DNA from: Cryobacterium luteum
GTDB lineage: Bacteria > Actinomycetota > Actinomycetes > Actinomycetales > Microbacteriaceae
Direction of reading: 5' to 3'
Assembly: GCF_900110125.1 (NCBI RefSeq)
Contig: NZ_FOCN01000004.1
Coordinates: 124,001 to 188,000 of the forward strand
Length of the DNA stretch: 64,000 nt
In this document: piece by piece, positions 38,464 to 63,644 of the stretch
Layout: each line of letters begins with the position of its first letter
How positions within the stretch are numbered: position 1 is the stretch's first letter
The notes under the pieces: model-generated
The model's input: the letters and a program-made list of their open reading frames with translations, nothing else
Told to the model about the DNA's origin: nothing
Databases searched by the model: none
Translations under genes and position numbers: made by a program

Positions 38464-38802
38464 ATGCTTTCGCCTAAGTCAGAAGCGTCCCGACTGCTCG
38501 GACTCCGCCTGCGCGAGCGCCGCCTGGCGCTCGCGCTCAACCAGCAGGACGTCGCCCTGCTCGCCGGACTCAACGTGTCCAATTACGCCCGAATCGACCG
38601 CGGGCGCGGCAATCCCACGATGTACACGCTCATCCGAGTTGCGGCCGTGCTGCAACTCGAAATCAGCGAGCTCGTTGCCGGTCTGGCCGTCGAGCAGCTG
38701 CCGCCGACCCACGACGGCTACCTCGCGATCGAATTTCGTCGGTCACAGGACAGTCAGGTCCGTCGACGACTCGATGAGGGTCAGGCCGGTTTGATGCCGT
38801 AG
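38464..38802 (+). CDS. Small XRE-family HTH regulator
   Basis: A 112-aa protein with one Cro/C1-type helix-turn-helix (about residues 10-66: LGLRLRERRLALALNQQDVALLAGL, then YARIDRGRGNPTMYTLIRVAAVLQL given here in parts). The remaining 45 residues are a short tail with FRRSQDSQVRRRL. GAGGA touches the ATG directly, so initiation may be leaderless (TACAAC lies 6 bases upstream). Its last 22 bases overlap the convergent exporter ATPase gene. Targets unknown; the surface-polymer genes are candidates by position. Confidence 0.8.
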   Translation: MLSPKSEASRLLGLRLRERRLALALNQQDVALLAGLNVSNYARIDRGRGNPTMYTLIRVAAVLQLEISELVAGLAVEQLPPTHDGYLAIEFRRSQDSQVRRRLDEGQAGLMP

Positions 38803-39551
38803 TCGGCGTTATACCGGGCGAGCACGTCGGTGATCGGCGCGTCGAGCACCAGATCACCCTTGTCGAGATAGAGACCCCTGGTGCAGAAGCGCCGCAGGTC
38901 GCGCTCGTTGTGCGAGACGATGAACAGCGTGCGACCGCCGGCCAAAAGTTCCTCGATGCGACGGTAACATTTCTCCCGAAAGGCCTTGTCGCCGACGGCT
39001 AGAACCTCATCGACCAGCAGGATCGGTTCCTCCAGCCGGGAAATCACCGCGAAAGCGATCCGCACTTTCATTCCGCTGGACAGATGCTTGTACGGCGTAT
39101 CGATGAAATCGGCGATCTCGGCGAATTCGATGATTTCGTCAAAGCGTTCGGTGATCTGCCTGCGGGTCATCCCGTGCAGGCCCGCCGTCAGGTAGACGTT
39201 GTCGCGCACGCTCAGGTCGTCGACGAAACCGCCTGTGATCTCGATCAGCGGTGCCACACCCTCGGTGACGCGCACGGAACCTTCATCGGGCAGCACGACC
39301 CCGGTGACGAGCTTGAGCAGGGTGGACTTACCCTGCCCGTTGCGCCCGACGACGCCGATGGCCTCGCCCGGTTGCACGGTGAAGCTCACATGCTGCAGGG
39401 CCCAGAACTCGCCCGGCCGGCTGCGCCTCCTGCTCGCACCGAACAGATCCTTGAAATTGCGACGTCCTCGCCGATTCCGGCGAAAGCGGATGCCGACATC
39501 CTGCAGCGAGATAACCGGCGTTACTGTCGGCGGCGCTTTCACCTGCGTCAT
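38781..39551 (-). CDS. Polysaccharide/teichoic acid ABC exporter, ATPase (TagH/Wzt-like)
   Basis: A 256-aa ATPase: Walker A VVGRNGQGKST, signature LSSGMKVRIAF, Walker B ILLVDEVLAVGD and switch His in IVSHNERDL. The GVAPLIEITGGF and YKHLSSGM wording is typical of the TagH/RfbE/Wzt branch that exports lipid-linked polymers. There is no C-terminal carbohydrate-binding domain, so it is the short form. The ATG overlaps the permease stop by one base (TGATG). Confidence 0.93.
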   Translation of the reverse strand: MTQVKAPPTVTPVISLQDVGIRFRRNRRGRRNFKDLFGASRRRSRPGEFWALQHVSFTVQPGEAIGVVGRNGQGKSTLLKLVTGVVLPDEGSVRVTEGVAPLIEITGGFVDDLSVRDNVYLTAGLHGMTRRQITERFDEIIEFAEIADFIDTPYKHLSSGMKVRIAFAVISRLEEPILLVDEVLAVGDKAFREKCYRRIEELLAGGRTLFIVSHNERDLRRFCTRGLYLDKGDLVLDAPITDVLARYNADYGIKPA

Positions 39552-40351
39552 CAGATCTCCTTCAACACGGCGCGTTCGGTGCGGCGGAAGACGAGCAGTC
39601 CGAGCCCGAGGAAGACGAGGGACATGATCACGCTGATCCCGACGGCAAACCAGTCGAGCTGTTCGGGAAAGAAGGCTGCCCGATACAGACTGAAAATACC
39701 GCTGAGCGGGTTGAACGCCGCCCAGAAGTGCAGCTCGGGCGGTAGGTCGCTGGTGCCATAGATGATGGGGGAGGCATAGAACAGAAAACGCAGGATGAGC
39801 TTGACGGCCCGTTCCAGGTCGCGGAAGAACACCACGAGCGGGGCGACGAGAAGCCCGACACCCGCGGTCAATATCGCCTGGATCACGATGGCGAGGGGGA
39901 AGAACACGGCGTCGACGTTGAGTTCGGCACCGTACAGGAGCGCGAACAGCACCAGCACCGGGATGGACGCCAGAAACTCGATGCCCTTGGACAGCACCAG
40001 ACGGTTCACCCAGATGGTGCGGGGTATCCGCGTCGAGCGGATGAGCTTCGCCTCGCGCAGAAAGGCTCGGGTACAGTCGGAGACCGCACCGTTGAACCAC
40101 ATCCAGGGCAGCAGGGCCGCCAGCAGGAACACGATGTACGGGTCGCTGCCGGCGCTGCGGTCAAAGACCTGGGTGAAGACGAACCAGTAGATGCCGGCCA
40201 TCACGAGCGGGTCGAGGATGGACCAGAAGTAGCCGAGCACCGAGGTGGAATAGCGCACCCGCAGGTCGCGCTGCGTCAGCAACCACAGCGAATGCCGATA
40301 CCGGGCGATCGGCGTGCGCTGTTCGGGGCGCACCTGGGCGTAACTACTCAC
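39551..40351 (-). CDS. Polysaccharide/teichoic acid ABC exporter, permease (TagG/Wzm-like)
   Basis: A 266-aa ABC-2 membrane protein with six membrane segments; LLTQRDLRVRYSTSVLGYFWSILDPLVM is the interfacial and first-helix region shared by TagG/Wzm (given here in outline), and FYASPIIYG lies before the last helices. It pairs with the ATPase that follows. GTG at 40351 (VSSYAQVRPEQ) has TACGAT 7 bases upstream. Earlier in-frame codons run back into the neighbouring gene and are rejected. Confidence 0.92.
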   Translation of the reverse strand: MSSYAQVRPEQRTPIARYRHSLWLLTQRDLRVRYSTSVLGYFWSILDPLVMAGIYWFVFTQVFDRSAGSDPYIVFLLAALLPWMWFNGAVSDCTRAFLREAKLIRSTRIPRTIWVNRLVLSKGIEFLASIPVLVLFALLYGAELNVDAVFFPLAIVIQAILTAGVGLLVAPLVVFFRDLERAVKLILRFLFYASPIIYGTSDLPPELHFWAAFNPLSGIFSLYRAAFFPEQLDWFAVGISVIMSLVFLGLGLLVFRRTERAVLKEI

Positions 40352-40358
40352 GCGGTCT

Positions 40359-40364
40359 ATCGTA
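40359..40364 (-). promoter_or_regulatory. Leaderless -10 box for the exporter operon
   Basis: On the minus strand TACGAT, 7 bases, then GTG at 40351. It supports independent transcription of the exporter genes. Confidence 0.45.
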
Positions 40365-40431
40365 TGGGAGCGCGGGGAGCGTTCCGCGCCAGCCTGGCCG
40401 GTGACGAAACCCCGACGCCGTGGCTTAGGTC

Positions 40432-40485
40432 TTTCCGGCGGCACAGGGGTTTCCGGCGGAACAGGGGTTTCGGATGGTGCCGGAC
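40432..40485. repeat. Three tandem 18-bp units between cytidylyltransferase and exporter genes
   Basis: TTTCCGGCGGNACAGGGG recurs with 18-base period beginning at 40432, 40450 and 40468; the third unit is diverged. It lies in the 142-bp space downstream of the cytidylyltransferase gene. No gene is evident there. Confidence 0.5.
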
Positions 40486-40493
40486 CGGGTCGG

Positions 40494-41216
40494 TCAGACG
40501 AACAGGTTGGCGCGCTCGAGGTCCTCGGCGAAGTCCACCTCGACGGCGTAGAAGTCGGAGATGTTGACCGGCTCCACCAGCATGCGGTTCTGTTCGATCG
40601 CGAGCTCGATGCCACGCTCAAAGTAGTCCTGGTCGGCCACCTTGTTCAGCTGACGGATGAGGGTAGCCTTGTCAGCGCTCGATACGTAGTTGATGCCGAC
40701 GGCTTCGCCGAGGCCGCCCTTGACGGTCTTCGAGAGCTCCTTGATGTAACCTTCGGCACTCGTCGTGTACTTGACCTCTTCATCGGACACCTTGTCGGTG
40801 TTCACGGTGACGAAGGATTGATCGCGAGCCATCATGGCCGCAGCGCGGTCGAGGATGGCCGGGTCGAAGACCACGTCGCCGTTCATCCAGAGCACGCCAC
40901 CGGGTTTGGAGGCCTGCAGGGCACGCAGCAGGCTCTTCGAGGTATTGGTCTGGTCGTATTCTTCGTTGTAAACGAAGGATGCCTGCGGGAACGCTTCGAT
41001 GATGTGCTCAAGCTTGTATCCGACGACGATCGTGACCTTGGCGGCTTTGCCGAAGGCGTGTGCGATGTTGTCGAACTGCTGCTGCATGATCGTGCGGCCG
41101 TCATTCAGCTCGGTGAGCGGCTTCGGCAGTGAGCGCCCGAGACGGCTGCCCATACCGGCCGCCAGAATGACCACCTGCGTTTTAGTTGCTCGCGCTTTGA
41201 CTGCGTGCGTCGTCAC
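40494..41216 (-). CDS. Nucleotidyltransferase, phosphocholine/alditol cytidylyltransferase-like
   Basis: A 240-aa NTP-transferase: VVILAAGMGSRLGRSLPKPL with the signature Gly-rich loop and Lys, then VVGYKLEHI, VYNEEYDQTNTSKSLL and the metal-binding WMNGDVVFD. Wording such as NxSxSL and GDVVFD resembles LicC-type CTP:phosphocholine and related CTP:phospho-alcohol enzymes. It would make the CDP-alcohol used by the CDP-alcohol transferase or TagF-like protein of this locus. GTG at 41216 has GAGGAG at perfect spacing. Confidence 0.85.
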   Translation of the reverse strand: MTTHAVKARATKTQVVILAAGMGSRLGRSLPKPLTELNDGRTIMQQQFDNIAHAFGKAAKVTIVVGYKLEHIIEAFPQASFVYNEEYDQTNTSKSLLRALQASKPGGVLWMNGDVVFDPAILDRAAAMMARDQSFVTVNTDKVSDEEVKYTTSAEGYIKELSKTVKGGLGEAVGINYVSSADKATLIRQLNKVADQDYFERGIELAIEQNRMLVEPVNISDFYAVEVDFAEDLERANLFV

Positions 41217-41464
41217 GATTATCTCCTCAAGAATGGTTAGGGCTAGGCCGCAAAACCCCATCAGTACTGAAGAGTTTGCCCAGGATTCACCCACATGTTC
41301 ACGTAAAGACACACCGTTATGTCATCCTCACCATAACCCGTCGGGCTGTTCCGAGGGAAGAAACGGCTCAGCACGTGTCCATTTCGTGACCCGGCGTGGA
41401 GCGCACTCACAGGTTGAAACGGGTGCTTCTGGCCCGTCCGCACGCCCCGGTCGGCGGTCCTTGG

Positions 41465-41470
41465 TAGGTT
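41465..41470 (+). promoter_or_regulatory. Leaderless -10 box for the repeat-tailed ABC ATPase gene
   Basis: TAGGTT, 6 bases (AGCGGA), then GTG at 41477. AGCGGA is too close to serve as a ribosome site. This supports translation of the full repeat region. Confidence 0.55.
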
Positions 41471-41476
41471 AGCGGA

Positions 41477-43072
41477 GTGACTTTTGTGCCGCCCCACTCC
41501 GAATCCGGCGATGACTCCGTCACGGGCCGTGCTGCCGATTCGCAAGCTCAGCCCATTGGCGCGCCAGGGGTCGCTACGCCACCCGTCGCCAAGCCGGCCG
41601 TTCGTAAGCCGGCCGTTCGTCGGCCGGCGGTTGGTAAACCGACCGGTGCTAGACCGACCGTACGTGCAACGACGGCGGCCAAGTCAACAGTCGCTAAGCC
41701 TGCTGTTGCCAAGCCTGCTGTTGCCAAGCCTGCCGTTGCCAAGCCTGCCGCAGCCAGGACGACGGTGACCAAGCCGACCGTAGCCGCGCCGACCGTAGCC
41801 GCGCCGACCGTAGCCGCGCCGACCGTAGCCGAGCCAACGGCGGCTCAGCCCACGGTGATCGGAGCAACCGCTGGGCAGCCGCCCGCCGAAGCCGGAGTTG
41901 CCGAGCCGGCGGTGCGGAAGCCGGCGGTGCGGAAGCCGGCGGTGCGGAAGCCGGCCGTGCGGAAGCCGGCCGTGCAGACGCCGGCCGTGCAGACGCCAGC
42001 GGTGCGGAAGCCTGCGGTGCGGAAGCCGGTTGGGTCCGAATCGACATCGGCGACAAGCGCGGGGGTACCGACGTCGTTTGGTGTTGTTCGGGCCACGGCG
42101 CAGGTGCTCGCCGAGAACGCAACCGACGAGACGACACGTCCGTACGTGACCCGCGACGCCCTGGTGACGACCCCGCCGCCCGCGACGGTCGCGGTCGTGC
42201 GGCAATCGGTCGATACGTCGGCAGCGACACCGACGATCGGCACCACGTCAACAGCGAAGCCGGTGCCCCAGCCGACACCGGCTGTCGCAACACCCGTAGC
42301 GGCAGCCCCGGCACCGATTGTCATCGAAGCTCGCGGTCTGGTCAAACGCTTCGGCCACACCGTTGCGGTGTCGGATCTGGACCTGACCGTTCGGGCCGGA
42401 TCGTTCTACGGCATCGTCGGACCCAACGGTGCCGGAAAAACCACGACCCTGTCGATGATCACCGGGCTGCTGCGTCCGACCGCCGGAACCGCCCTCGTGC
42501 ACGGCATCGACGTCTGGGCCAGGCCCAACGAGGCGAAGCGGGTGATCGGCGTACTTCCCGACCGGCTTCGGCTCTTCGATCGTCTGACCGGCGCCCAGCT
42601 CCTCTATTACGCCGGCACCCTGCGTGGTCTCGACAATGATACGGTGCGCAGCCGGTCGGCTGACCTTGCCGCGGCGTTCGGCCTCGAAGATGCCCTCAAT
42701 CGTCTCGTCGCCGACTACTCGGCCGGCATGACCAAGAAGATCGCCCTGGCCTGCGCGATGATTCATTCCCCGCGCGTGCTGGTGCTCGATGAGCCGTTCG
42801 AGTCGGTCGACCCGGTGTCGGCGGTCAATGTCACGGAGATTTTGCAGAAATATGTGGCTGCCGGAGGAACAGTCGTGCTGTCCAGCCACGGCATGGACCT
42901 GATCCAACGGGTGTGCGATCACGTCGCCATCATCGTGCAGGGCCGCGTGCTCGCCGCCGGCACCATCGACGATGTTCGCGGCCAGAAGACACTGGAGGAT
43001 CGATTCGTCGAGCTTGCCGGTGGGCGCAAGGTCGCGGAGGGCATGGAATGGTTGCACAATTTTTCGGACTGA
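41477..43072 (+). CDS. ABC transporter ATPase with long Lys/Pro/Ala/Val pentapeptide-repeat N-terminus
   Basis: A 531-aa protein. Residues about 35-190 are five-residue repeats of the types AKPAV, APTVA and RKPAV; a Thr/Ala/Pro linker follows to about 280. The rest is a normal ABC-2 type ATPase: Walker A GPNGAGKTTT, signature YSAGMTKKIALA, Walker B VLVLDEPFESVD and switch His in LSSHGMD. The tail resembles basic histone-H1-like or HupB-like tails, with about one Lys/Arg per five residues in the basic blocks. An internal in-frame GTG at 42263 could give a tail-less form. It overlaps the membrane partner by 25 bases. Confidence 0.85.
   Translation: MTFVPPHSESGDDSVTGRAADSQAQPIGAPGVATPPVAKPAVRKPAVRRPAVGKPTGARPTVRATTAAKSTVAKPAVAKPAVAKPAVAKPAAARTTVTKPTVAAPTVAAPTVAAPTVAEPTAAQPTVIGATAGQPPAEAGVAEPAVRKPAVRKPAVRKPAVRKPAVQTPAVQTPAVRKPAVRKPVGSESTSATSAGVPTSFGVVRATAQVLAENATDETTRPYVTRDALVTTPPPATVAVVRQSVDTSAATPTIGTTSTAKPVPQPTPAVATPVAAAPAPIVIEARGLVKRFGHTVAVSDLDLTVRAGSFYGIVGPNGAGKTTTLSMITGLLRPTAGTALVHGIDVWARPNEAKRVIGVLPDRLRLFDRLTGAQLLYYAGTLRGLDNDTVRSRSADLAAAFGLEDALNRLVADYSAGMTKKIALACAMIHSPRVLVLDEPFESVDPVSAVNVTEILQKYVAAGGTVVLSSHGMDLIQRVCDHVAIIVQGRVLAAGTIDDVRGQKTLEDRFVELAGGRKVAEGMEWLHNFSD
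41580..42030 (+). repeat. 15-bp tandem repeats encoding pentapeptides
   Basis: Separate homogeneous blocks: AAGCCTGCTGTTGCC-type units (about 41698-41745), GCGCCGACCGTAGCC-type units (about 41787-41830) and AAGCCGGCGGTGCGG-type units (about 41927-42025). Within a block, copies are nearly identical at DNA level, which points to recent slippage or recombination. Confidence 0.85.
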
Positions 43073-44622
43073 AACTCCGGCTCCTCGCCAATCTTTTTCG
43101 TCGTAGTCCCTGGCAGGTCGTCGGCCTCGTGCTCGGTCTGCTGTACGGCCTCAGCGTTGCCGTTTCCCTGCTCATCGCCCTGATCAGCCTGCGCTTCGTC
43201 GGAGACCCGGTCATCATCCGCGATGCGCTCACGGTGGCCGGATCCATCGTGATCCTCGGTTTTCTGGTCATCCCGATCGTGGTCGGTATCGACGACAGCA
43301 TGGACCCCCGCAAGTTCGCCTTTCTGGGAATCCCGAACCGGTCCCTCTCGCTCGGCCTGGCCGGTTCGGCGTTGATCGGAGTTCCGACCCTCACGCTTTC
43401 GATCGTGCTGCTCGGCACCGTTGTCACCTGGTCGCGCGGCGTCGGGCAGACCCTGCTCGCCCTGATCTCGGCCGCCCTGATCCTCGTTACCTGCATCCTG
43501 CTGTCCCGGGTGAGCGCATCCGTTGCCGCATTTCTGCTGTCGACCAGGCGATCACGCGAATTCACCGGGCTGATCGGTGTCGTACTCCTCGTGTTGGTCT
43601 CCCCGATCGTCGTGGTGCTGCTCAGCACGGACTGGGGCCGTCACGGCCGCACCCTGCTCGGCACCCTGGCGGCGGTTCTGGGCTGGACGCCGCTCGGCGC
43701 AGCCTGGGCCGTTCCGGGAGACGCCTCCACTGGCGCCTGGGGCGCGGCGATTCTGAAGCTGCTCATTGCCGTGGGATCGGCCTACGCCCTCTGGCTGATC
43801 TGGCAATTCGTCGTGGCCCGCATGCTCGTGTCGCCCGGGCGCGAAGCGGCGGCGAAGCAGTATTCCGGGCTGGGCTGGTTCGACCGGCTGCCGCACAGTT
43901 CCGTCGGCGCGATCGCAGCCCGCACCTTCACCTACTGGGCGCGGGACTCGCGCTACTGGGTGTCGCTGATCATGATTCCGATCGTGCCGATCATCGCGAT
44001 CCTGCCGTTGAGCTTCGTCGGCGTGCCGTTGCACGACCTCGCCCTGGTGCCAGTCCCGCTCATGTGCATCTTCCTCGGCTGGACCATGCACAACGACGTC
44101 GCCTATGACAGCACCGCGATCTGGCTGCACGTGGCGTCGGGCACCAGGGGGGCGGCTGACCGGATCGGACGCCTCATTCCCGCTCTTTCCGTCGGCATCC
44201 CTCTGATTGGAATCGGCTCCGCCATCAGCATTTCGGTCTATGGGGACTGGTCGGTGCTTCCGTCGATGCTGGGCGTGAGTACCTGCATCCTCCTGGCTGG
44301 TCTGGGCTTCTCCAGCTACACCTCGACCCGTTTTCCCTATCCGGTGACCAAACCCGGTGACAGCCCGTTCGCCCAGCCTCAGGCCTCGGACACCGCCTCG
44401 GCTCTCGTGCAGTCGCTCACCTTCATCGGATCGATCGTGGTGGCGCTGCCGGCGCTCGTCTTCGCCTACCTCGGACTCGTCGAGGACCCGGTCTGGCATC
44501 TGCGCGCGCTCGGTGCCGGCCTGGGCCTGGGCCTGGTAGCCGTCGTCGTGGGCGTCTGGGTCGGCTCGCGTGCCTTCGACCGGCGCGGACCGGAAATGAT
44601 CGCTTCCGCTCAGCGCGCCTGA
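43048..44622 (+). CDS. ABC-2 type membrane protein, partner of the repeat-tailed ATPase
   Basis: A 524-aa integral membrane protein with about 12 membrane segments; no catalytic motif. Interfacial pieces such as FTYWARDSRYWVSL lie in the middle. Layout and the 25-base overlap with the ATPase gene indicate a two-gene exporter of unknown cargo. ATG at 43048 has GGAGGG upstream, inside the ATPase gene. Confidence 0.82.
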   Translation: MVAQFFGLKLRLLANLFRRSPWQVVGLVLGLLYGLSVAVSLLIALISLRFVGDPVIIRDALTVAGSIVILGFLVIPIVVGIDDSMDPRKFAFLGIPNRSLSLGLAGSALIGVPTLTLSIVLLGTVVTWSRGVGQTLLALISAALILVTCILLSRVSASVAAFLLSTRRSREFTGLIGVVLLVLVSPIVVVLLSTDWGRHGRTLLGTLAAVLGWTPLGAAWAVPGDASTGAWGAAILKLLIAVGSAYALWLIWQFVVARMLVSPGREAAAKQYSGLGWFDRLPHSSVGAIAARTFTYWARDSRYWVSLIMIPIVPIIAILPLSFVGVPLHDLALVPVPLMCIFLGWTMHNDVAYDSTAIWLHVASGTRGAADRIGRLIPALSVGIPLIGIGSAISISVYGDWSVLPSMLGVSTCILLAGLGFSSYTSTRFPYPVTKPGDSPFAQPQASDTASALVQSLTFIGSIVVALPALVFAYLGLVEDPVWHLRALGAGLGLGLVAVVVGVWVGSRAFDRRGPEMIASAQRA

Positions 44623-44641
44623 CTCAAACGGGCCGAGTGCC

Positions 44642-44647
44642 TAGACT
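44642..44647 (+). promoter_or_regulatory. Leaderless -10 box for the DUF3039 gene
   Basis: TAGACT, 6 bases (GGTGCC), then ATG at 44654; no Shine-Dalgarno sequence. Confidence 0.55.
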
Positions 44648-44653
44648 GGTGCC

Positions 44654-44938
44654 ATGAGTGAATTTCGTGCGAGCATTGCAGAACCCGGCCAGCCCGGCGG
44701 CGGAACGTCCACGCTCGACCGTGAACTCGAAGAACTGCTGAACCAGGAGCAGATCGAGCCCGGCGACCACGAACGGTTTTCGCACTACGTGCCCAAAGAC
44801 AAGATTCTCGAATCGGCCATCTCGGGCAAGCCGGTCAAGGCGCTGTGCGGCAAGAAATGGCTGCCGGGCCGCGATCCCGAGAAGTTTCCGGTGTGCCCGA
44901 CCTGCAAGGCCATTTACGAGAAGATGAAAGCCAAGTAG
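44654..44938 (+). CDS. DUF3039 protein
   Basis: A 94-aa actinobacterial protein of unknown function. After an acidic first half (LDRELEELLNQEQIEPGDHE) comes a likely metal site: HYVPKDKI, then ALCGKKW and VCPTCKAIYE, giving His plus three Cys. It is widespread and usually single-copy in actinobacteria. It starts leaderless and ends 4 bases from the convergent pncB stop. Confidence 0.85.
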   Translation: MSEFRASIAEPGQPGGGTSTLDRELEELLNQEQIEPGDHERFSHYVPKDKILESAISGKPVKALCGKKWLPGRDPEKFPVCPTCKAIYEKMKAK

Positions 44939-44942
44939 TCCA

Positions 44943-46304
44943 TCACCGGTAGGTCGTGGGGATGACGGCCTCGCCGCGCCCCAACCGGAACGCCTCGATC
45001 GGCAGTTCCTGCATAACGGATGCGTTGTGCGCGCGGGCGCGCAGCGTTCCGGCCGGTCCCAGATAGCGTTCATCGACGGCGCCGTCGACGATCAGTGGAA
45101 CCAGCAGGGCGCGTTCCAGTCCGCTGCGGGAATCGAATTGGGCGTCGGGACCGTCCCCGAGCACCACGATCTCTTCCTGGGCGGTACCGACGGCGTCCAC
45201 TCGGCGCAGCGCGCTTTTACGGCCGCCGATGGACAGCTTCGCGGTCGACGTCTTGGCGACGGAGATCCAGTCTTCGCCGTGACCCTTGTGGGCGACGAGC
45301 TTGTAGACCAGTCCGGCAGCGGGCTCGCCCGACCCGGTGACCACCGAGGTGCCGACGCCGAAGGCATCCACCGGGCTGGCCGACAGAGCCGCGATGGCGA
45401 ACTCGTCGAGGTCGCTCGTAACGGTGATCTTGGTGTTGACCGCGCCGAGGGCGTCGAGCTGTGCCCGGGCCGCAGCGACGACGGTGGGCAGATCACCCGA
45501 GTCGATGCGTATTGAGCCGAGTTCCGGCCCCGCGATCTTCACCGCCAGGGCGATTCCGGCCGGCACGTCGTAGGTGTCCACGAGGAGAGTCGTGGCGGAA
45601 CCGAAGGCATCCACTTGCGCCTGGAACGCGTCTTCTTCGGTGTCGTGCAGCAGAATGAACGAGTGGGCGGCTGTTCCCATGGTGGGCAGGCCCCACTGGC
45701 GGCCGGCCTCGAGGTTGCTCGTCGACGCGAAACCGGCAATGTACGCGGCACGAGCGGCGGCGACGGCTGAATGCTCGTTGGTTCGGCGTGAACCCATTTC
45801 GGCGATCGGACGACCGAGGCTCACCGACACCATGCGGGCGGCGGCGCTGGCGACCGAGATGTCGTAGTTGAGCACGCTGAGTATGAGGGTCTCCAGAATG
45901 ACGCCCTCGGCGAAGGTACTCTCCACCAGCAGCAACGGTGAGCCGGGAAAGTACGCTTCGCCCTCCTGGTAACCCCAGACGTCGCCGCTGAAGGCATAGT
46001 CGGCCAGGTAGTCGAGGGTTGGGGTGCGCACGACGTTGTTCTCGGCGAGCCAGGTCAGTTCTTCGGTCTCGAAGCGAAATTGGCGGATCAGCTCGAGCAG
46101 ACGACCGGTGCCGGCGACGATGCCGTAACGACGGCCGGTGGGCAGGCGTCGGGCGAAGGCCTCGAACATGCACTCCCGATCGGCGGTACCGCTCTGGATG
46201 GCGGCGTCCACCATCGTGAGCTCGTAGCGGTCGGTGCGCAGGGCGGGCGGCCGGGCGGCCGTTCCGCGGGGCGCCGGAACGGAGAAAGCGGGGGACGGGG
46301 TCAC
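44943..46304 (-). CDS. pncB: Nicotinate phosphoribosyltransferase
   Basis: A 453-aa enzyme of the NAD salvage route: nicotinate + PRPP + ATP to nicotinate mononucleotide. Motifs: [17 protein letters not shown] at the N-terminus, [48 protein letters not shown] and VYKLVAHKG. The start is GTG at 46304 with TAAGCT 7 bases upstream and no ribosome site. It is divergent from murI across only 41 bp. With nadABC and nudC it shows that de novo, salvage and breakdown routes coexist. Confidence 0.95.
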
Positions 46305-46311
46305 CCGGCAC

Positions 46312-46317
46312 AGCTTA
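46312..46317 (-). promoter_or_regulatory. Leaderless -10 box for pncB
   Basis: On the minus strand TAAGCT, 7 bases, then GTG at 46304. It lies 14 bases from the murI -10 on the other strand. Confidence 0.5.
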
Positions 46318-46331
46318 TCCGCTTGGCGGGC

Positions 46332-46337
46332 TAGGCT
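46332..46337 (+). promoter_or_regulatory. Leaderless -10 box for murI
   Basis: TAGGCT, 8 bases, then GTG at 46346. Back to back with the pncB -10. Confidence 0.5.
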
Positions 46338-46345
46338 TGATCTCC

Positions 46346-47203
46346 GTGACGGATGCACCGATTGGTATTTTCGATTCCGGAGTCGGCGGCCTGACCGTCG
46401 CCCGGGCGATCAAGGACCAGCTGCCCAACGAATCCATTCTCTATATCGGTGACACGGCCCACTCGCCGTACGGACCGAAGAAGATCGCCGACGTGCGTGG
46501 ATTCGCCTTGGATGTGCTCGATGATCTCGTGGCGCAAGACGTGAAGATGCTCGTCATCGCGTGCAACACAGCGTCGGCGGCCATGCTGCGGGATGCCAGG
46601 GAACGCTACAGCGTGCCCGTGATCGAAGTGATCCAGCCGGCCGTGCGACGTGCCGTTTCAACGACCCGTAACCAGCGCGTGGGCGTCATCGGCACCCTCG
46701 GCACCGTCAACTCTCGTGCCTACAACGATGCCTTCGCCGCAGCGCCCCAGATTGCCCTAATCAGCCAGGCCTGCCCACGATTCGTCGAGTTCGTCGAAGC
46801 CGGCGTCACGACCGGCGCCGAGGTGCTGGCCGTCGCCGAAGAATACCTGGCACCGCTGCGTGCAGCCGAGGTCGATACCCTCGTGCTCGGATGCACCCAC
46901 TATCCGTTTCTGCGCGGCGCCATCTCTTATGTCATGGGAGAAGGCGTCACCCTGGTCTCAAGCGACACCGAAACCGCCAACGACGTCTACCGGGTGCTGG
47001 TCGGCCAGGGCCTGGAGCGCGCACGCACGAGCCCGCCCAGCTACCGTTACGAGGCCACCGGCGACAGTGCCGAATATTTTCTCGCCCTCGCCCACCGCCT
47101 CATGGGACCGGAGGTCAGCCGGGTCGACCTGATCGAGACCGGCACCCTCAACCTCAGCGCGCTGGCAACGCCCACCTTTTCCCCGCTGCACCCGAACCAC
47201 TAG
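46346..47203 (+). CDS. murI: Glutamate racemase
   Basis: A 285-aa enzyme that makes D-glutamate for peptidoglycan. The two catalytic Cys are in IACNTASA and LGCTHYPFL; other marks are [23 protein letters not shown] and the C-terminal TGD region. GTG at 46346 is taken as the start because the -10 box lies just before it; a TTG three codons earlier overlaps that box. First gene of murI-rph-rdgB. Confidence 0.96.
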
Positions 47204-62276: not shown

Positions 62277-63644
62277 CTAGAGCAGGCTGCGTGGGCGGTG
62301 CGGGGCGAAGCGGGGGATGTAGCGGCCGAGCAGCACGGCGCCGAACAGTCCGAATACCCCGATGATGCCGCTCGCGATCGACAGCGAGGCGAGCGCGGTG
62401 ATGCCGGCCACGGCGAGCGGAGCTGCGGCGCTGCCGAAGTCGGCGGTGAACCGCCAGGCACCAAGGAACGGCGCCGGATGCCGCTGCGGAGCGAGGTCGG
62501 CGCCGAGGGTCATGAGCAGGCCGCTGCCGATGCCGTTGGCCAGGGCGAGGAACATCGCCACGCCGATGAACCAACCCACGGTGCTCGGCAGGTCGTGCGT
62601 GAAGGCGAGCGCGACGTGGCCGAGGCCGAGTCCGATCATCGACGGCACGGCGCTCCAGATGCGGCCGAAGCGGTCCATGATCTGGCCGCTGACGTAAAAC
62701 AAGAGAAAGTCGATGCCGCCGGCGATGCCGATGATCAGGGCCGTGTCGGGCGCGCTCACCCCGATGCTGACCGCCCAGAGCGGCAGCATGACGGTGCGAC
62801 TGGCCCGCATCGCGCCGACGAGCGCGGCGCCGGTGCCGAGGCGCACGAGCACGCCGCGGTGGGCGCGGATGGTCTGAAAGAGACCGGCAGCGGTGCCGGA
62901 CGTGGCGACATCCGGTAAAGCGGATGCCGCGTTCTCCGACCCAGCCTGCTCCGACCCGGAACGTTCCGACCCGGCCTGCTCCGAGCCAGCCCGCGACGGA
63001 CCGGAACGCCCAGACCCGGCCTGCTCCGAGCCAGCCCGCGCCGGACCGGCACCCGGAGTCGCCAGGCCCCGGGTGGGATCGGGCAGGATCACCAGCGTCG
63101 CGACGGCGAGAACGCAGCAGACGATGAACACCCAGAACGCCGCCTGGGTGCTGCCGGTGAGGTGGATGAGCGCGGCGGAGAGGAACGGGCCGACGAACCA
63201 GCCGGCCCGAAAAACTCCACCGAGGGTGGACAGGGCGCGGGCCCGGTAGACCAGCGGCACGTAGCTCGTCATGAAGGCGTGTCGGGCGAGGGCGAAGACG
63301 GCGGTGGCGATGCCGATCAGAAAGATGCCGAGGCCGAGTACGAGCGGGCTCGGCGCGACGATGCAGATGATGACGGCACCGATCGTGACCAGCGAGGCAT
63401 AGATCATGGAGTTGCGCTCGCCGATGCGGGCGACGATCCAGCCGCTGGGAATGTCGCCGACCAGTTCGCCGAACATGATCATGGCGGCGATCACCCCGGC
63501 GACGGCGAGCGTGGCGCCGAGGTCATTGGCGACCAGGGGAATGAGCGGAATGATTGCGCCCTCGCCGACCGAGAACAGCAGGGTGGGCAGAAACGCGGTC
63601 AGGGCGATGGACCGCAGGTTGAGGGGGCGCTGCGTATTGCTCAT
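62277..63644 (-). CDS. MFS transporter with repeat-rich central loop
   Basis: A 455-aa, 12-helix major facilitator. The first half has VGEGAIIPLIPLVANDLGA and GELVGDIPSGWIVARIGERN (motif A-like); the second half GQIMDRFGRIWSAVP. The central loop between helices 6 and 7 (about residues 200-245) consists of RAGSEQAGS-type repeats. Substrate unknown; probably an exporter. ATG at 63644 by comparison with the usual start before helix 1. Divergent from prfB. Confidence 0.88.
   Translation of the reverse strand: MSNTQRPLNLRSIALTAFLPTLLFSVGEGAIIPLIPLVANDLGATLAVAGVIAAMIMFGELVGDIPSGWIVARIGERNSMIYASLVTIGAVIICIVAPSPLVLGLGIFLIGIATAVFALARHAFMTSYVPLVYRARALSTLGGVFRAGWFVGPFLSAALIHLTGSTQAAFWVFIVCCVLAVATLVILPDPTRGLATPGAGPARAGSEQAGSGRSGPSRAGSEQAGSERSGSEQAGSENAASALPDVATSGTAAGLFQTIRAHRGVLVRLGTGAALVGAMRASRTVMLPLWAVSIGVSAPDTALIIGIAGGIDFLLFYVSGQIMDRFGRIWSAVPSMIGLGLGHVALAFTHDLPSTVGWFIGVAMFLALANGIGSGLLMTLGADLAPQRHPAPFLGAWRFTADFGSAAAPLAVAGITALASLSIASGIIGVFGLFGAVLLGRYIPRFAPHRPRSLL
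62942..63040. repeat. 45-bp period direct repeats in the MFS loop
   Basis: A 28-base word is identical at 62968-62995 and 63013-63040, with a partial third copy from 62942. On the minus strand it encodes repeats of Arg-Ala-Gly-Ser-Glu-Gln-Ala-Gly-Ser type. Confidence 0.8.

Follow-up and report, generated by a model that had tools for sequence, protein, structure and literature searches.

A long, repeat-bearing and predicted disordered N-terminal tail on the ATPase of an ABC-2 type exporter in the Microbacteriaceae

The ATPase of an ABC transporter is normally a compact domain. CFTR is a eukaryotic ABC transporter that also has a disordered regulatory region, and in both CFTR and Ycf1 the disordered region shares a chain with the membrane domains. 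For Ycf1, regulation through phosphorylation of its disordered domain has been described (PMC8917219). Among ABC-2 type exporters, the nearest relatives of the protein considered here are the DrrA/ABCA-like ATPases (PF00005; TIGR01188) and the mycobacterial efflux pump Rv1217c-Rv1218c (PDB 8k1m-8k1p), in which a permease chain of about 510-530 residues is likewise paired with a separate ATPase.

Here we describe an exporter ATPase in a 64,000-nucleotide stretch of the Cryobacterium luteum genome (contig NZ_FOCN01000004.1, positions 124,001 to 188,000), referred to below as the window. As in Ycf1 and CFTR, a disordered region, here a predicted one, is attached to an ABC transporter, but in this case it is an N-terminal tail of a bacterial ATPase that forms a chain of its own, and its phosphorylation is hypothetical. 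ABC ATPases and low-complexity basic tails are each known. A tail of this kind on an exporter ATPase, or the combination as a family-wide exporter trait, was not found in the literature searched, which included subscription journals only in small part.

The ATPase, its tail and the partner permease

The ATPase gene occupies 41477-43072 of the window, on the plus strand like every feature below unless stated otherwise, and encodes 531 amino acids between a GTG start and a TGA stop. Its ATPase domain (42311-43069) is complete, with Walker A motif GPNGAGKT at residues 315-322, signature YSAGM and Walker B motif LVLDEP, and this domain is the likeness to the DrrA/ABCA-like exporters. Pfam ABC_tran (PF00005) matches residues 299-441 with 95.1 bits against a cut-off of 25, and the first strand of an AlphaFold model lies at residue 281, which puts the beginning of the core at about residue 279-281. 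GPNGAGKT, DEP and the SAGM signature are invariant in a 44-row alignment of orthologues; SAGM departs from the canonical ABC signature, LSGGQ. The best curated model, TIGR01188 (drrA), gives 211.9 bits, below its cut-off of 312.45, and the protein does not qualify for the DrrA subfamily. The best solved relatives are the nucleotide-binding domains of ABCA3, ABCA4, ABCA7 and ABCA1, and PHROGs returned general ABC transporter and similar matches. Rv1218c is matched at 9.3e-34; the match starts at its residue 7, so Rv1218c has no comparable tail.

What separates the protein from these relatives is an extension of 278 residues (residues 1-278; 41477-42310), rich in Ala, Pro, Val, Thr, Lys and Arg and predicted to be disordered from composition, charge and AlphaFold, whereas 28 of 31 homologues from outside the family have a start signal no more than 49 residues from the core. 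The AlphaFold model, built from the 44-row alignment, contains neither helix nor strand in residues 1-260, and mean pLDDT per block is 37-58. About 155 residues of the extension (roughly 36-190) are repetitive, made of five-residue RKPAV, AKPAV and APTVA units that are encoded by 15-nt blocks between 41591 and 42029. Tandem Repeats Finder reported four 15-nt arrays with scores of 68-193 (threshold 50), at 41591-41645 (77% matches), 41696-41748 (97%), 41773-41835 (97%) and 41888-42029 (89%, 9.5 copies), and a repeat search located a 60-nt unit 14 times, for the most part spaced by 15 nt and with 60-100% identity to the reference copy. The repeats are thus genuine and keep the frame, and some of them are nearly identical in DNA. 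The original prediction of an ABC ATPase with a long, repeat-bearing tail is confirmed. No other protein of the same genome has a similar tail at E 0.001, the tail itself being the sole match. Another tandem repeat lies near the end of the window (62934-63049; 45-nt unit, 2.6 copies).

The partner permease (43048-44622; 524 aa) is predicted to consist of two ABC-2-like halves of long helices. Its start overlaps the ATPase stop, and this offset, inside the end of the ATPase gene, is the same at nearly all loci listed. Pfam, NCBIfam and PHROGs gave no match to the permease at E 0.001 (the Pfam and NCBIfam query being a slightly longer frame), and Foldseek found nothing for it at E 0.001. Both halves of the permease model align to ABC-2 type membrane domains, and further structural comparison gave middling matches. 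The top Foldseek match, to 8k1p of Rv1217c-Rv1218c, is weak (E 0.047, Foldseek probability 0.97, TM about 0.3, rmsd 10-13), as are the full-length superpositions on 8k1o and 8k1p (rmsd 10.3-10.4 over 402-411 residues); among the best 50 matches listed, only these two and the yeast-type Cdr1 (9ium) have alignments longer than 400 residues. At two loci the permease is farther from the ATPase than elsewhere, by about 2 kb (L086) and more than 3 kb (L059), in an insertion-like arrangement.

The exporter genes lie in a conserved neighbourhood, with a divergent NTP transferase gene on one side (40494-41219, minus strand) and a DUF3039 gene immediately after the permease (44654-44938), both identified by Pfam and neighbourhood comparison. 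The whole arrangement spans 38781-46358 of the window. In most named loci, several of whose contigs are too short to show gene order, one flank holds an ABC-2 type exporter pair (ATPase, then permease) and the NTP transferase, and the other holds the permease, DUF3039, a nicotinate phosphoribosyltransferase-like gene, presumably pncB, and a gene that we take to be murI. An NTP transferase gene was not detectable there at L086, L109 and L116. We assume a role in polysaccharide export for the exporter pair. Farther left are a group 2 glycosyltransferase gene and a CDP-glycerol glycerophosphotransferase-like gene, which make an envelope-polymer setting of the exporter plausible.

Start signal and translation of the tail

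Orthologues were taken from the genus (57 of 57 genomes, the window's own included, matched the ATPase gene at E 1e-70), the order, the family (119 of 150 genomes at E 1e-95, the other 31 having no match at that threshold) and a named collection (80 loci). Family-level rows were defined by identity of at least 66% and hand removal of loci assigned to other families. Near-copies were dropped by identical sequence, and L048, a complete copy of the truncated L037, was lost in this way. A closed frame with a start box was found at 107 loci, 103 of them family-level and four from other families (L124, L129, L133 and L138). A different set, the 107 evaluable family loci, consists of the same 103 and four closed family loci that fail the start-box selection, namely L085, L109 and L116, in which the box has a weaker form, and L059, which has none. 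A further 46 loci lack a closed frame or the box; at family level these comprise the four closed loci just named and 15 open-ended ones (L037, L050, L064, L072, L087, L088, L091, L095, L107, L110, L123, L126, L175, L183 and L188). The loci are related by descent, and the counts below are accordingly not independent.

Six bases 5' of GTG 41477 lies TTGGTAGGTT (TGn followed by TAGGTT; 41461-41470), which we take to be an extended -10 element and which would make the start leaderless; the -10 box is thus present where it was originally described. A start box followed by a tail of at least 73 residues occurs in 103 of the 107 evaluable family orthologues, so the orthologues do not all start at the ATPase domain. 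Although these 103 loci were selected for having such a box, the strict form TTGnTAnnnT, present in 98 of them, precedes none of the 23066 other start triplets at these loci and none of the 865 other in-frame start triplets upstream of the ATPase. The other five have a looser form only (L094, L096, L097, L115 and L180). Spacing is 6 nt in 90 loci and 7 nt in 13, and the codon behind the box is GTG in 100 and ATG in three.

Starts close to the ATPase lack comparable signals. Between the 40th codon ahead of the core and the fifth codon inside it, an in-frame start codon is present in 91 of the 103 loci, a Shine-Dalgarno-like core accompanies such starts in only 12, and a leaderless-type signal in none. 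The reading frame of the tail also appears to be maintained. Among 17 close relatives, 431 of the 537 gaps between tails have a length divisible by three (all pairs with L001 and an unseeded random 40% of the others), compared with 0 of 17 gaps in a small upstream control. Over 18 pairs, dN/dS ranges from 0.18 to 0.50 for the tail and from 0 to 0.11 for the ATPase, and in 13 of the pairs the two differ tenfold or more, although these values depend on alignments of repeats; the tail is fast-evolving, as had been proposed. Together, the start box, the dearth of leaderless internal starts, the frame-keeping gaps and the dN/dS values make it very likely that the tail is translated from GTG 41477, as the original prediction held. 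Initiation at GTG 42263 or elsewhere near the ATPase was considered and rejected, the strict box being solely distal.

A TTCGTGAT/TTTGTGAT-like element, noticed by eye, recurs a few tens of nucleotides upstream of the start box in several genera (L105, L108, L111, L112, L113, L191, L192 and L193) and may belong to the divergent gene.

Length, charge order and islands across the family

In the 103 family loci the tail is 73-614 residues long, with a median of 270. Of the 78 family genomes in which the best hit reaches 70% identity, 72 have an open frame of at least 340 aa (the 78 lengths were transcribed by hand). The other six, which were chosen for their short open frames, unlike the L061-type and other rows, have tails of 4-63 aa behind the same kind of start box. 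L109 and L116 are also short, with tails of 21-28 residues. The contig of L109 is filed under an Acidobacteria metagenome bin, a label that is probably wrong because the gene arrangement is that of Microbacteriaceae and the N-terminus resembles that of Amnibacterium. The 31 loci from outside the family comprise 24 with leaderless-type starts, four with Shine-Dalgarno-type starts and three with neither, as judged with a looser pattern that fits 163 of 23066 start triplets by chance and was applied to stretches of at most 120 codons.

In a tree built from 63 ATPase cores, the family form clusters together on a long branch with support of 100/99. Short-tailed family loci occupy at least two places in it: L116 stands beside the long-tailed L086, and six short-tailed loci fall in a group of 13 that has weak support and includes long-tailed loci as well. 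In this group L189, with a tail of four residues, is sister to the long-tailed L195, and the two carry the same genus code, g260 (G429 and G489). A second related ATPase, with 63-66% identity, occurs in six of the 57 Cryobacterium genomes; one such copy, L198 (G050), has a short N-terminus and an adjoining permease match, and groups with sequences from other families. G479 gave three matches of equal score at three places, which are either real copies or an assembly artefact.

From this comparison, the long tail is a trait of the Microbacteriaceae form of one exporter and not of transporter ATPases generally. It presumably arose in that form, most simply from a short N-terminus like those of the outside relatives; the state before the gain is a presumption, since the sequences from outside the family could be counterparts of the second copy instead of the family form. 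We likewise infer the direction of the later length changes, for which shortening in a few lineages is the simplest reading and repeated lengthening may be an alternative.

A, P, S, T, K, R, E, D, Q and G make up 78-96% of each of the 103 tails. A tail contains 0-13 aromatic and Cys residues, in most cases 0-3. Aromatic islands nevertheless occur in some of these aromatic-poor tails (L067, at about tail residues 430-442; L074, at about 389-401; L051, L054 and L056): FVWS(K/R)RWPFL in Okibacterium and Mycetocola, and (R/K)RPFW(K/R)L in one Cryobacterium group.

The window tail has a net charge of +20 over 278 aa, and the original description of it as basic is correct for this protein. It does not extend to the family, in which net charge is positive in only 66 of 103 tails, some are strongly acidic (L098, -49; L140, -46) and the sequence is not conserved either. 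What recurs is the order of charges. Over its first 20 residues the tail is negative at 94 of the 103 loci, neutral at five and positive at four, and the mean charge turns positive at about residues 30-90. A 30-residue window of +7 or more is present in 98 of 103, at a median position of 23% of the tail. Outside the close Cryobacterium clade, the mean charge then falls below zero and returns to positive values 10-30 residues ahead of the ATPase, and a patch of +5 per 15 residues lies within the last 60 tail residues in 60 of 86 loci; such a basic patch beside the ATPase is found in 0 of 17 loci of the close clade, the window included. The charge blocks follow in part from composition, since clustering exceeds that of shuffled tails in only 42 of 103 loci for basic and 50 of 103 for acidic residues. 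The recurring trait is the charge order with its acidic tip, and not net charge.

Individual clades also have non-repetitive conserved islands. In the window, VRATAQVLAENATDETTRPYVTRDALVTT (42086-42172) is such an island, found in 16 of the 17 close-clade Cryobacterium loci by pattern and in the 17th (L020) by profile; this close-clade island, DETTRPY[VA]TRDAL, is thus kept in all 17, with small changes in three. A RVAASLTTETTAAER-like island is present in 13 loci of what we call the Agromyces group. The two islands are not recognisably alike, and in profile searches neither rises above shuffled controls in other clades. A single motif common to all tails was rejected, as the two profiles find neither each other nor other clades. 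A general [DE]TT phosphosite motif was rejected as well, with 28 of the 86 loci outside the close clade having it and 26.3 expected by shuffling.

Possible functions of the tail

What does the tail do for the exporter? One possibility, which we favour tentatively and rate at slightly less than an even chance, is that it is a flexible, electrostatic tether at the cytoplasmic face of the pump. The transcript would start at or next to the GTG, and a leaderless start there would make the tail part of the main protein. Its length would change by in-frame slippage of the repeats, and two ATPase copies per pump, assuming a dimer, would carry two tails. The basic blocks may touch polyanions near the membrane, acidic lipids in the first place and nucleic acid or polyanionic glycolipid precursors in the second, and the acidic tip and acidic stretches may limit this binding and could fold back on the basic blocks. 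The tail would then tune the location, clustering or ATPase turnover of the pump and would not be needed for transport itself; the six genomes with tails of a few residues to a few tens suggest that its full length may be dispensable. The varying sign of the net charge, the strongly acidic tails and the close Cryobacterium clade without a basic patch beside the ATPase speak against a tether.

The strongest rival is that the tail is a nearly neutral accretion, without a specific job beyond staying soluble and in frame, since its rapid change and the short-tailed lineages also fit near-neutral drift. We consider this unlikely, though less so than the explanations that follow. If the N-terminus points into solvent, repeat slippage would lengthen the tail harmlessly, which would account for tandem repeats with near-identical DNA, hypervariable length, a dN/dS so far above that of the ATPase, the short tails of several lineages and outside-family N-termini that are short and often Pro-rich. 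Free loss is difficult to reconcile, however, with long open frames in nearly all of the 78 family genomes, and a dN/dS still under 1, the prevalence of the acidic tip and clade-wide islands such as DETTRPY[VA]TRDAL argue for some constraint.

Another reading is that the N-terminus has become a dedicated regulatory disordered domain, patterned in charge and with motifs particular to each clade, which would sense polyanions or phosphorylation and either gate the pump or set its position. This seems rather improbable at present. If it were true, the tail would be the bacterial equivalent of the regulatory regions known from eukaryotic ABC transporters.

It is less probable still that the basic repeats bind DNA or RNA in the manner of histone H1 and so attach the exporter to the nucleoid or its own mRNA, the idea put first in the original prediction. 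The tail had been called histone H1-like, and it shares Lys/Arg/Pro/Ala repeats with HC2 (PF07382), a histone H1-like family, and with other Lys/Pro/Ala-rich tails; the basic window tail and KPAAK-like units that recur in many of the 44 orthologous tails are in line with this idea. The HC2 model scores 32.4, however, below its cut-off of 40; the extensin-like PF02095 gives a low-complexity match of 59.2, below its cut-off of 105. Unlike HC2, the tail is attached to a membrane transporter ATPase, and the sign of its charge changes between orthologues, of which some have long acidic EP repeats (L105 and L108). The H1 likeness is therefore one of composition, and nucleic acid binding, possible for basic tails like that of the window, would fit the acidic ones poorly.

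Phosphorylation as a switch appears more doubtful again. Ser/Thr kinases would modify Thr-rich islands and FHA proteins would read them, comparable to the regulatory domains of eukaryotic ABCC transporters. What speaks for this are the DETTRPY island of the close clade and the TTETTAAER island of the Agromyces group. We take ETT to resemble the OdhI/GarA site. OdhI of Corynebacterium is reported to be phosphorylated at Thr14/Thr15 (PMC2784874). The genome encodes FHA domains, with nine matches all over the cut-off, but the ETT-hydrophobic-aromatic pattern is absent from the nine FHA loci, the islands are clade-specific and [DE]TT is not enriched outside the close clade.

Finally, an untranslated tail, with the true start internal (e.g., GTG 42263) and the upstream frame a by-product of GC-rich DNA, is very improbable: in-frame start codons near the ATPase are common and long antisense frames also occur at the locus, but almost all evaluable orthologues have the box ahead of the distal GTG and before no other in-frame start, and internal start signals, gaps and dN/dS all point the same way.

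In many members of the family the predicted disordered extension is at least as long as the ATPase that carries it, and it has been kept across most of the Microbacteriaceae. A near-constant start signal combined with a tail that changes freely, down to a few residues in some lineages, amounts to a natural experiment on what tails may do for a pump. Since one genus, g260, holds both a long-tailed and a short-tailed form, the question is open to a direct test.
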